Positions 5,965 through 10,669 of a stretch of 64,000 nt of DNA are shown piece by piece. Every line of letters begins with the position of its first letter. The stretch's first letter is position 1. The DNA is from Pseudomonadota bacterium (GTDB taxonomy: Bacteria > Pseudomonadota > Gammaproteobacteria > Acidiferrobacterales > UBA6901), in the NCBI GenBank assembly GCA_021790335.1, contig JAJYEE010000003.1, positions 124,001 through 188,000 of the forward strand, given 5' to 3'. Below the pieces are notes generated by a model. The model was given only the letters and a program-made list of their open reading frames with translations. It was not told the origin of the DNA and made no database searches. The translations under genes and the position numbers were made by a program.

Positions 5965-6652
5965 GAAAGCGGCGAAGCCGGAATTCGAGCGGGACGGTAA
6001 TCCTAAATCAAATCGGGCCGGGAATCATCCCGGGTATTTCTATGGCATCGCGGTTGCCCGTCTGTGGCAGTCCCTGAGCGGGTGTGTCTGCGCGTCGATG
6101 CTGTTGCTGTGGCTCGTCGCACCTCTGGCTGCAGCCTCCGGCCTTCCAGCGGCACGGAATCTGCAGGCCGACGCCCGGGAAGCCGCGCGCGACCGGCTGC
6201 CGGTACTCGTGTTTTTCTATGCCAATTCTTGTGCCTATTGCAAGGAAGTTGACGAGCTTTATCTCGAGCCAAGGTACGCGGACACGGTCTACCGCAAGAA
6301 AGTCATCATCCGCGAAGTCAATATCGACAGTGCGCGCACGCTGCGTGATTTTTCCGGCAGAATGACCAACGATGCGGCGTTTGCGCAGCGCTACGGAGTA
6401 TCTCTGACTCCGACGATCAAGCTTTTCGATGCCCATGGCCGTGAACTCGTGCCGGCCCTGGTCGGGGTGGCCGATCCCGATTTCTATGGCAGTTATCTGG
6501 ACGCAGCTGTTGCCGCCGCCGGGCACAAACTGCGCAAAGGAAGGACCCTGAGCCCGACCGCCTTTGTGCACGCAAATGCACCCCCTGCGCTGAGCGCAGG
6601 CCCGGCTAATGGCGTGCCCAGCGTCGTACCGACGCGGCATGACGCCGGCTGA
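5963..6652 (+). CDS. Exported or membrane-anchored thioredoxin-fold protein
   Basis: 229 residues from the ATG at 5963; the longer upstream frame is antisense to hemC and not protein-like. A hydrophobic stretch around residues 32-47 ([18 protein letters not shown]) looks like a signal peptide or anchor after an unusually long polar start. A thioredoxin-like domain follows with the redox motif CAYC (in [12 protein letters not shown]) and a cis-proline region [10 protein letters not shown], resembling SoxW/DsbE-like or thioredoxin_2 proteins. It probably acts in the periplasm. It lies antisense between algR and hemC, overlapping the algR 3' end by 47 bases and the hemC start by 2. The exact start is uncertain. 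Confidence 0.8.
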
Positions 6653-7340
6653 CATCTAGCTTCCTATCCAGACCCTTGAGACTCACCTGCCAGGTACCGC
6701 CAGGGCTTTTTTCGATCCCCTTGATGTAGCCCGTGGCGACCAGCGCGTTGCGGTGAATCCGCAGAAATGCCTTTTCGCCGAATTCCTTCTCCAGGTTGAC
6801 CAGGGAATCCTCGATCAGGTGCTCCTCGGCTGGCGTGCGCACCGTCACATACTTGCTGTCCGCCATGAAGTAGAGGATATCCTGAACCGGTACCAGACGG
6901 ATGTTGCCGCGCAGATGCACGCTGATGTGAGTGCGTGCGCTTGGTTGCTCCTGCGCCTGGTTAATCTGCTGCAACTGCTTGAGCGTGAGCTTGTGTGCTT
7001 TTTCAAGCGCCATGGAGAGCCGTTCCTTGCGGATCGGCTTGAGCAGGTAGTCCACGGCATTGACCTCGAATGCATGCAGCGCATGCTGGTCGTAGGCGGT
7101 CGTGAAAATGACGCTCGGCGGATTCTCCAGACCCATCAGATGCATTGCTGCCTCGAGCCCGTCCATGCCGGGCATGCGGATATCCATCAGCAGCACGTCC
7201 GGCCTCATTTCGGCGGTCCTCTCGACCGCCTCATTGCCGTTCATGGCTTCACCGACAATCGTATGGCCTCCGATCTCGGTCAGCAGTTCACGCAGGCGGT
7301 CGCGTGCCAGCTTCTCGTCGTCAACAATCAAAACCTTCAT
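6606..7340 (-). CDS. algR: LytTR-type response regulator, AlgR-like
   Basis: 244 residues, starting at the ATG preceded by GGAGGGAATCT. An N-terminal receiver domain has the acidic pair in IVDDEKLARDRL, the phosphoacceptor Asp at about residue 53 in DVLLMDIRMPGMDG, and the switch Thr/Lys (TTAYD, KPI). A LytTR DNA-binding domain fills the C-terminus (about 140-240; HLRGNIRLVPVQDILYF, FLRIHRNALV). It is encoded just downstream of its presumed kinase algZ. In Pseudomonas the orthologue controls alginate and type IV pili; whether the regulon is the same here is inference. Confidence 0.93.
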   Translation of the reverse strand: MKVLIVDDEKLARDRLRELLTEIGGHTIVGEAMNGNEAVERTAEMRPDVLLMDIRMPGMDGLEAAMHLMGLENPPSVIFTTAYDQHALHAFEVNAVDYLLKPIRKERLSMALEKAHKLTLKQLQQINQAQEQPSARTHISVHLRGNIRLVPVQDILYFMADSKYVTVRTPAEEHLIEDSLVNLEKEFGEKAFLRIHRNALVATGYIKGIEKSPGGTWQVSLKGLDRKLDVSRRHAASVRRWARH

Positions 7341-7539: not shown

Positions 7540-8592
7540 CTAGCCCCTGACAATCGGCATCTTCAGTTTTACGTGGTACTGCTTGCCTTCTTCGAATGTC
7601 TGCATGGTGGCAGTGCTGCCGAAGTGGGTGTTTAGCCGCTGGCGAATGTTGTCCTGGGCGATCTTGTTGCCCTTGGAGGAGCGGTGGTTCTCAGTTTCCG
7701 GCAGCGGATTGCTGATCAGCACGTTGAGATAGTCGCCCTCCGCCCACAGTTCTATTTTCAGCGTTCCACCGTTGAACCGCGGCTCAATGCCATGGTAGAT
7801 CGCATTTTCCAGGAGCGGTTGCAGCGTAAGCGCCGGGATGAGCGCGCTGCGTGGCACATTGCTCACGTTCCAGGACACCTTCAGTCGGTCGCCGAGGCGC
7901 AGTTTCTCTATCTCCAGGTACTGCCGTGATATTTCGCGTTCCGCCGAGATTGGTACCAAATTGCGGGCATCGGCGAGCAGGACGCGAAACAGGTCTGCGA
8001 GATCTTGCAGGGCCGTCTCAGCGCGCGCCGGGTCGCTGCGCATGAGGCTCGCGATGCTGTTCATGCTGTTGAATAGAAAGTGCGGGCGTATGCGCGATTG
8101 CAGCGCCTGCAGGCGAGATTCCTGTTCGGATTTGGCGTCCGCCTCCGCGCGATGCGACACGATCAGGTAGCGCAGACCGAGCGCGCTAATGATCCCGCCG
8201 ATGAGCAGACTGCGGGCGAGCAGTGCCACGTGCCACGAGGGCCATCGCACGCTGATCAGACCGAGATCATACAGCGCAAAGATCACCAGTTCGGTCCCGA
8301 GCGCGATTGCGCCGAGAAGCAGCAGAAAGACCACGATGGAACCGTTTGCGAGCGACATGCGGCGTATGACCGGTTGCGCCAGTTTGAGAACGATGACGCT
8401 TACGAACGAAATCATCAGGGCAAAGGCCGTGAGCAGGTTAAGATCCTGCCACGCGCTTTCGTCGAACGTGGCGTTGCGTCCGATCGTGATAATCACCGCA
8501 ATGATCAGTGCGAGAAAGATGATCCGCAGCGCATTGCTCAAAGATCCAAAATCGGGCAGGAAGTCCTGGGTAGGAGACTTGGGCTTGTTCAT
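7540..8592 (-). CDS. algZ: LytS/AlgZ-family sensor histidine kinase
   Basis: 350 residues. Four hydrophobic segments (roughly residues 19-150) form the sensor; a short coiled linker leads to the His_kinase domain with the phospho-acceptor motif SRIRPHFLFNSMNSIASL, and an N-box PLLENAIYHGIEP. The ATP-lid region lacks the usual DNG signature and reads ISNPLPETENH, then GNKIAQDNIRQRL; this atypical form also occurs in Pseudomonas AlgZ/FimS. It is separated from algR by 199 bases with no visible gene. It should sense an envelope or membrane signal and phosphorylate AlgR. Confidence 0.92.
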   Translation of the reverse strand: MNKPKSPTQDFLPDFGSLSNALRIIFLALIIAVIITIGRNATFDESAWQDLNLLTAFALMISFVSVIVLKLAQPVIRRMSLANGSIVVFLLLLGAIALGTELVIFALYDLGLISVRWPSWHVALLARSLLIGGIISALGLRYLIVSHRAEADAKSEQESRLQALQSRIRPHFLFNSMNSIASLMRSDPARAETALQDLADLFRVLLADARNLVPISAEREISRQYLEIEKLRLGDRLKVSWNVSNVPRSALIPALTLQPLLENAIYHGIEPRFNGGTLKIELWAEGDYLNVLISNPLPETENHRSSKGNKIAQDNIRQRLNTHFGSTATMQTFEEGKQYHVKLKMPIVRG

Positions 8593-8987: not shown

Positions 8988-9017
8988 AAAAAAAAGCCCC
9001 CGTCTGGGACGGGGGCT
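8988..9017 (-). terminator. Strong intrinsic terminator of the candidate sRNA
   Basis: On the minus strand a 10-bp perfect stem (9008-9017 with 8995-9004, loop of 3) is followed by eight T (8988-8995, the last also forming the stem base). It points away from argH and lies about 400 bases before algZ, so it cannot serve either flanking gene; it implies a separate short transcript. Confidence 0.85.
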
Positions 9018-9118
9018 AGAAGACCTGGTTCGGCATTCGGGGTGGGGGTGCACAAAGGAGAGTCCGAACCAGGGAAAGCACCGACTAATCCGCGACTCGT
9101 TCAACAAGCTTCAAAGAT
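8988..9118 (-). ncRNA. Candidate small RNA between algZ and argH
   Basis: A minus-strand transcript of about 131 nt is predicted from three signals read in sequence: a possible promoter at 9125-9154, a perfect 10-bp inverted repeat (9064-9073 with 9024-9033) enclosing a 30-nt loop, and a strong terminator ending in eight U. The loop, 9034-9063 on the minus strand, is almost free of G and contains CUCUCCUUU and ACCCCCACCCC. C-rich unpaired loops of this kind are typical of trans-acting sRNAs that pair with Shine-Dalgarno sequences. No reading frame with a ribosome site lies inside. I do not recognise a named family. Confidence 0.6.
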
Positions 9119-9124
9119 AGATTA

Positions 9125-9154
9125 ACACTAGCCTAGAATGGACGGCCGCAACAA
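9125..9154 (-). promoter_or_regulatory. Possible sigma-70 promoter of the candidate sRNA
   Basis: On the minus strand TTGTTG (9154-9149) and TAGTGT (9130-9125) are separated by 18 bases. Each hexamer departs from consensus, so this is only a moderate match; it would place the RNA start near 9118. Confidence 0.4.
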
Positions 9155-9274
9155 TGCCCTACCGACGGCCGGGCTGGGTACACGGACGAGCGGGACGACA
9201 ACTGCTCGTGCATGCGATGATGCGTGGCCGCGTTTTTAGCTGTGACGGTTGAGACATTCAATGATGGCACATAC

Positions 9275-10669
9275 ATGAATATTGATAAACCCTGGGACGG
9301 TCGGTTCACCGAGCCGACAGATGCTTTCGTGGAGGCCTTTACTGCCTCGGTGTCGTTTGACCGGCGGCTGTACCGACAGGACATTGTCGGCTCCGTCGCC
9401 CATGCCAAGATGCTTGCGCATGTCGGTGTACTTACCGGGGCGGAGCGAGATGCCATCGTCAAGGGTCTGTCCGAGATCGAAGCCGAGATCGAAGCCGGCA
9501 CGTTTACCTGGAGTGTGGCGCTCGAGGACGTGCACATGAACATCGAATCGCGCCTAATCGCGCGCATCGGCGAGGCCGGCAAGAAGCTGCATACCGGACG
9601 CTCGCGCAATGACCAGATTGCAACCGACCTGCGGTTGTATCTGCGCGATGCCGCAGACGTGATCGATTCCGCAATCCAGCGGCTTCAGAAAGCGCTGGTC
9701 TCGGTTGCTGAGCGCGAAGTGGACTCGATCATGCCCGGGTTCACCCACCTGCAGGTAGCCCAGCCTGTCACCTTCGGCCACCAAATGCTGGCATGGTTCG
9801 AAATGCTTCAGCGCGATCGCGGGCGTTTCGCGGATTGCCGCCGGCGCATCAACGTCATGCCGCTTGGCGCTGCCGCCCTGGCCGGGACGAGTTATCCGAT
9901 CGATCGCGCATTCGCCGCCCGCCTCCTCGGCTTCGATGCTGTTGCCGAGAATTCGCTGGACGCGGTGTCCGATCGCGATTTCGCCGTGGAATTCGCGGCC
10001 GCCGCCGCATTGCTGATGGTCCATTTGTCGCGCTTTTCGGAGGAGCTGGTGCTGTGGTCATCCAGCCAGTTCGATTTTGTCGAGCTGCCCGATGCGTTCT
10101 GCACGGGTTCGTCGATCATGCCGCAGAAAAAGAACCCGGATGTTCCCGAGCTGGTTCGCGGAAAGAGCGGCCGCGTTGTTGGAGATCTCGTCTCCCTGCT
10201 TGTCATGATCAAGGGCCAACCGCTTGCCTATAATAAGGACAATCAGGAGGACAAGGAGCCGCTGTTCGATGCTCTGGATACCGTGCTCGGCAGCCTCAGA
10301 GCGTATGGTGATCTGGTGCCGAACATCAAAGTCAAGCGTCAATCCATGCTGCATGCCGCGCAACGTGGTTTTTCTACCGCCACCGACCTGGCGGATTATC
10401 TGGTGCGCAAGGGCGTCGCATTTCGCGACGCGCACGAAGTCGTCGGACGGGCGGTCCGCCACGGCGTTGAAAGCGGCAAAGATCTGGCAGACATGACGCT
10501 GGAGGAACTGCGGGGCTTTTCTGCAGCAATCGGCTCGGATGTCTTTGACATATTGACAGTGACCGGGTCGGTGGCCGCCAGGAATCATCTGGGCGGCACT
10601 GCGCCGGAGCAAGTGCGCATGGCCATTGCGCGTGCGCGCGAACGCCTTGAATCTGCGGCGAGGAAATAG
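9275..10669 (+). CDS. argH: Argininosuccinate lyase
   Basis: 464 residues from the ATG at 9275, which gives the family-typical start [14 protein letters not shown]. It splits argininosuccinate into arginine and fumarate, the last step of arginine synthesis. The superfamily signature [12 protein letters not shown] containing the catalytic serine loop is present, as are HTGRSRNDQ and [11 protein letters not shown]. The gene is divergent from algZ, as in Pseudomonas. No clear ribosome site precedes the start. A GC-rich inverted repeat (gcttgcc/ggcaagc, 10670-10706) follows the stop but lacks a T-run. Confidence 0.97.

Follow-up and report, generated by a model that had tools for sequence, protein, structure and literature searches.

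RNAIII of Staphylococcus aureus is a regulatory RNA of approximately 514 nt, which encodes delta-haemolysin and contains many hairpins. In the corresponding agr system, AgrA binds direct repeats upstream of the promoters P2 and P3, centred near -60 (PMC4227749), and the sites of LytTR-domain regulators have been described as pairs of 9-bp direct repeats with a spacing of 10–13 bp (PMC11347149). A structured small RNA (sRNA) of Xanthomonas, sX13, acts without Hfq and uses C-rich loops to repress mRNAs that carry G-rich motifs close to their start codons (PMC3771888), and in Pseudomonas aeruginosa the response regulator AlgR binds upstream of the sRNA gene prrF2 (PMC5790918). Here, we describe an element found in a 64,000-nt stretch of DNA (hereafter the window; contig JAJYEE010000003.1 of assembly GCA_021790335.1, positions 124,001 to 188,000) from a member of the order Acidiferrobacterales, where it occupies the minus strand of the intergenic region between algZ and argH. 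The element is probably a free-standing gene for a trans-acting sRNA of the AlgZ/AlgR system; it is predicted to be transcribed, and the C-rich loop of the RNA would block ribosome-binding sites (RBSs). In the mechanism we propose, AlgR would bind tandem repeats upstream of the -35 box and activate transcription of the sRNA, the stem would present a 30-nt C-rich loop, and anti-Shine-Dalgarno-like stretches of this loop would pair with G-rich RBSs and repress translation.

The arrangement resembles that of AgrA and RNAIII, in which a LytTR regulator binds direct repeats that precede the promoter of a regulatory RNA, itself encoded beside the regulator's own operon (PMC4227749), with AlgR as the putative counterpart here, and in which C-rich RNA loops pair with RBSs (PMC3771888), as predicted for the present loop. 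Unlike RNAIII, the sRNA is short (approximately 90–130 nt), has one pairing loop followed by a terminator, and belongs to a Gram-negative host, and the two share neither sequence relation nor Rfam match. With sX13 it has in common the predicted use of a C-rich loop against G-rich sites near start codons, but sX13 folds into three hairpins, the loops of which are of the 4C/5C type, and is encoded at polA rather than at argH-algZ, and no sX13 match to the sRNA was returned from Rfam even at E <= 5. PrrF, in turn, differs in that it is an iron sRNA under Fur control and is encoded elsewhere. At the gathering score, Rfam 15 yielded only two tRNAs in the window and nothing in six related loci, and in permissive mode the weak matches to the sRNA rest mostly on the terminator; the best of these, anti-hemB (RF02837; 27.1 bits vs a gathering score of 49.5) and Betaproteobacteria_toxic_sRNA (RF02278; 21.3 bits vs 50), share with it a stem or C-rich stretch plus terminator. 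Searches of the open literature for sRNAs of Acidiferrobacter or Sulfuricaulis, or for one encoded at algZ-argH, gave nothing relevant. We classify the predicted sRNA as a new family within a familiar class of RNAs.

The element is directed away from argH, and therefore towards algZ. The arms of its main stem (9073–9064 with 9033–9024) form 10 perfect bp, and the motifs CTCTCCTTT and ACCCCCACCCC both lie inside the 30-nt loop (9063–9034). The terminator stem also has 10 bp (9017–9008 with 9005–8996), closes a CCA loop and is followed by T8, and a terminator scan also reported this hairpin (10 pairs, of which 8 are G-C). For the 93-nt core the folding energy is -41.2 kcal/mol, vs -23.1 +/- 2.7 kcal/mol for dinucleotide shuffles (z -6.8, 0/200), and the full 131 nt give z -3.0 against shuffles; the fold exceeds chance. 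The two hairpins make up both the minimum free energy (MFE) and the centroid structure of the core, with the C-rich motif lying exposed in the loop. A BLAST search with a 201-nt minus-strand query found the sRNA in 5/5 genomes of the window's genus and, normally as a single copy, in 54 of the 57 Acidiferrobacterales genomes, including 34/34 of the better ones (completeness >=90%, contamination <=5%), and nearly all of the carriers have it in synteny with argH and algZ. Since matches beyond the window's genus run from the stem (query position ~108) to the U-tract (~193), conservation covers the hairpin with its terminator, whereas the 45 nt that precede the stem (9118–9074) are specific to the window's genus. 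In an alignment of 52 sequences, 98% of the main-stem cells are paired, 7 of the 10 pairs carry double-sided changes in at least one sequence, and the covariation score is 0.430, vs 0.231 for shuffled alignments (0/500) and <=0.16 with slid partners, while the loop, unpaired in the predicted fold, is near-invariant across the order. A covarying stem around a fixed loop fits an RNA that presents a constant single-stranded sequence. The original prediction, made from the letters of the window, had described a 10-bp stem, 30-nt loop, terminator and U8 between algZ and argH, and this anatomy matches the minus-strand sequence exactly; it had also named a lack of compensatory changes in the 9024–9073 stem as the outcome that would refute it, and such changes are present.

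Upstream of the element, alignment revealed a rigid promoter architecture, CCRNYYRTCSGT-N9-CCGRYYRTCGGT-N6-TTGnnn-N17-TAnnnT, in all but a few loci, with a gap of 6 bp between the second repeat (R2) and the -35 box in 51/62 loci and a -35/-10 spacer of 17 bp in 48/62. With the -10 box at 9130–9125, transcription is predicted to start near 9118, where the original prediction had placed it. Over the aligned loci, the two repeats (in the window at 9161–9193, corresponding to G000:C79:133161-133193) reach an identity of 7.3/12 at an offset of 21, vs <=4.8 at other offsets, and 51/53 order loci score >=19/22. When a covariance model of the 52 aligned sequences was searched against a sample of 370 genomes of the class, convincing matches beyond the order came from families f60 and f100 only, all of them divergent and at argH-algZ, and the 21-bp tandem layout is found upstream of most of these divergent copies as well. 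The sRNA is absent from 69 divergent argH-algZ gaps of other Gammaproteobacteria (taken from 80 further algZ upstream regions that were fetched), and these gaps also lack the tandem repeats (best score 17, mean 14.2, vs a mean of 21.1 with the sRNA). About 65 other Gammaproteobacteria possess such a gap and lack the sRNA. Because the repeats are kept with most f60 and f100 copies and missing from the sRNA-less gaps, they belong with the sRNA and not with argH or algZ. As a free-standing sRNA gene should, the element lies between genes and is equipped with a conserved promoter and a Rho-independent terminator of its own, and the direct-repeat pair with a period of ~21 bp upstream of the -35 box is the layout of LytTR sites. 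Together with the covarying stem and invariant loop, these features favour the proposal that an unannotated sRNA gene lies here.

A LytTR domain was detected in 54 of the 57 order genomes, in single copy in 53 of these, and in most genomes the LytTR protein is encoded on the contig of the sRNA, where, within a few kb of it, it is AlgR. The three genomes with no LytTR match (G039, G050 and G053) are the same three that lack the sRNA. For Pseudomonas AlgR, 157 ChIP-seq sites have been reported (PMC5790918), whereas in a genome-wide scan, which would have missed weaker or differently spaced AlgR sites, the strict tandem site (<=2 mismatches) was nearly unique per genome and matches with 0 or 1 mismatch lay almost all at the sRNA. 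As the sole LytTR protein, encoded next to a site that is near-unique at the sRNA, AlgR is the most likely activator, and the sRNA promoter would be its main conserved high-stringency site. The regulatory link to AlgZ/AlgR that had been suggested from proximity has thus gained LytTR-type tandem sites at a fixed promoter distance and a regulator that is the sole LytTR protein in nearly all genomes.

The loop contains two anti-Shine-Dalgarno-like stretches, CUCUCCUUU and CACCCCCACCCC. A search of ten genomes for AAGGAGAG followed by a start codon, from which 40 sites were fetched, gave candidates and no order-wide target, most of the genes showing ordinary pairing energies of -12 to -29 kcal/mol. 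In genome G045, TTCGGGGAAGTGGGTGCAACAAGGAGAGTTGTCATG lies upstream of the gene for a periplasmic binding protein of PhnD-like type (PF12974), and its predicted pairing, at -43.6 kcal/mol, takes in almost the entire loop. This complementary block is also present in the orthologs of G047, G048, G049, G050, G051, G052 and G053, while the preceding sequence diverges, and in G042, which belongs to another genus, the RBS pairs at both ends and differs in the middle. The nine orthologs give -33.6 to -44.9 kcal/mol (z -3.3 to -6.8 vs shuffled untranslated regions), values that come from a set picked as the best of many sites and that, because ancestry is shared, are not independent observations. Outside G045's genus and G042 the loop complement is absent, and PhnD-like homologs in the window's genus have no complementary RBS. 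The PhnD-like protein in G045's genus is one predicted target that is well supported at the level of sequence, and an ortholog group with RBSs complementary to almost the whole loop supports the earlier idea that the loop may cover such sites; invariance of the loop over the order implies further, order-wide targets. Among the open reading frame starts of the window, including those of algR and algZ, none showed outstanding pairing. Other candidates were set aside: a TolC-like efflux gene sharing a AAGGAGAG site in G045 and G054 has ordinary energies (-17 and -21), a GlnK-type PII gene (G000 and G003, -27 kcal/mol) is too little conserved to claim, and the same applies to riboflavin synthase in G000, where pairing at -46 involves a G-rich stretch. 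The GlnK-type gene is located at L348:1-801 (G000:C101:17580-18380), and its RBS, CCGGGTGCGGAAGGAGACAAGCATG, is predicted to pair moderately with the loop in these two genomes of the window's genus, which makes it a candidate target. By eye, the predicted PhnD-like target gene at L247:1501-2439 has another PhnD-like gene behind it and is divergent from a ChrA-like transporter.

Other readings of the element have to be weighed against this evidence. It is always directed towards algZ, and in family f2 its U-tract ends only ~65 nt before that gene, as would suit an algZ 5' leader with a premature terminator (attenuator) that governs read-through into algZR. We consider such a leader decidedly unlikely, because genome G055 keeps the sRNA and the tandem sites beside argH without algZ in the flank (the next gene there is rsmI, and algR is found on a different contig). 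G036 resembles G055, though its scaffold has gaps, and in G019 algZ starts ~1 kb further on; in addition, no alternative anti-terminator pairing was seen in the fold, for which MFE and centroid structures agree, and attenuation leaves the near-invariant loop unexplained. That the sRNA exists but answers to another regulator, with AlgR a mere neighbour, is unlikely: adjacency by itself is weak and the match of the repeats to the Pseudomonas AlgR box is partial, yet the 21-bp tandem repeat has LytTR geometry and AlgR is the sole LytTR protein in 53/54 genomes. A loop that serves to sequester a protein, or that is translated into a short peptide (G/ATG-CAC-CCC-CAC-CCC-GAA, MHPHPE...), without pairing to mRNA, would account for an invariance exceeding what short antisense seeds require, and GTG or ATG does precede CAC CCC CAC CCC GAA in most loci (window 9054–9037, minus strand). 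This is highly improbable, given that the putative start has no Shine-Dalgarno sequence ahead of it, the frame is lost past HPHPE and, in locus L011, interrupted by an additional C, third codon positions are conserved too, a single GGA at the loop base is no CsrA-type array, and pairing with the PhnD-like RBS involves nearly all of the loop. A chance hairpin, or a functionless element at the DNA level, is scarcely credible in view of the order-wide conservation, covariation, rigid promoter and synteny.

Several points do weigh against an AlgR-activated, RBS-blocking sRNA. The loci whose repeats were scored also supplied the consensus used for the scoring, the repeats fit the Pseudomonas AlgR box only in part, and assembly gaps could explain the joint absence of sRNA and AlgR from the three genomes named above; we infer the binding of AlgR to the repeats from site geometry, gene number and adjacency. 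On the side of the targets, the PhnD-like example is limited to one genus and G042 and is not order-wide, the search patterns used brought up no comparable target in the window's genome, and sequences fully complementary to the loop's CACCC part (GGGTGGGGGTGCA, <=1 mismatch) are not enriched across the order vs a reversed control. With these points taken into account, the AlgR-linked sRNA gene remains our preferred reading. It would add a family of sRNAs present across the order, for which AlgZ/AlgR is the predicted input and the PhnD-like binding protein one predicted output, and, as the likely main conserved AlgZ/AlgR target would be a single sRNA, it makes the role of this system outside Pseudomonas directly testable. 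More tentatively, AlgZ/AlgR of Acidiferrobacterales may be a riboregulatory switch that acts mainly via this sRNA, the promoter of which would hold its only order-wide conserved high-stringency site, and that arose independently as a Gram-negative counterpart of AgrCA-RNAIII. If true, the combination of LytTR regulator and C-rich RNA known from agr-RNAIII was invented independently.

Table 1. Coordinates of the sRNA gene, its promoter and the neighbouring genes in the window, listed in the direction of the minus strand.
Feature	Positions	Strand	Basis
argH, argininosuccinate lyase, divergent neighbour	9275..10669	+	Pfam
Repeat R1 (CCGCTCGTCCGT), tandem LytTR-type site	9182..9193	-	21 bp from R2
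Repeat R2 (CCGGCCGTCGGT), tandem LytTR-type site	9161..9172	-	upstream alignment
-35 hexamer TTGTTG, 6 bp from R2	9149..9154	-	upstream alignment
-10 hexamer TAGTGT; spacer 18 in the window's genus, 17 in most others	9125..9130	-	upstream alignment
Predicted sRNA transcript, ~131 nt; 5' 45 nt genus-specific	8988..9118	-	start placed from the -10 box
Main stem, 5' arm CCTGGTTCGG	9064..9073	-	sequence, folding, covariation
C-rich 30-nt loop ACTCTCCTTTGTGCACCCCCACCCCGAATG, near-invariant over the order; putative mRNA-pairing site	9034..9063	-	alignment, pairing
Main stem, 3' arm CCGAACCAGG	9024..9033	-	sequence, folding, covariation
Intrinsic terminator hairpin	8996..9017	-	terminator scan and folding
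Terminator U8 tail (T8 in DNA)	8988..8995	-	sequence, terminator scan
algZ, histidine kinase (PF06580)	7540..8592	-	Pfam
algR, response regulator, receiver and LytTR domains; putative sRNA activator	6606..7340	-	Pfam

Further observations concern relatives of the element and of its neighbours. The pattern CTCTCCTN{1,8}TGCACCCCCACCC matched, in named genomes, mostly Acidiferrobacterales or 'Muproteobacteria' metagenome-assembled genomes, with a few isolated matches in unrelated phyla, such as chance allows. Weak covariance-model matches beyond the order with no algZ nearby (loci L063, L064 and L067-L080) were not accepted as relatives. One of them, L080:270-359 in family f32, is a hairpin with the string GTGCACCCCCACCCC plus a terminator, which is either a chance likeness or a relocated relative, and two others, L067 and L071, from two genera of family f71, have similar hairpins with a CCCCAATCC loop plus terminator and possibly represent another sRNA with a C-rich loop. 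In family f60, genomes G109 (L060/L082) and G229 (L066/L083) carry two tandem, diverged copies of the sRNA in the argH-algZ gap, each with its own 21-bp tandem repeat. In families f7, f6 and f100 the locus contains a tandem pair of adjacent AlgZ-like kinases (G054:C1:499929-502090, G045:C1:636084-638252, G030:C9:15219-17404 and G405:C56:5379-7486).
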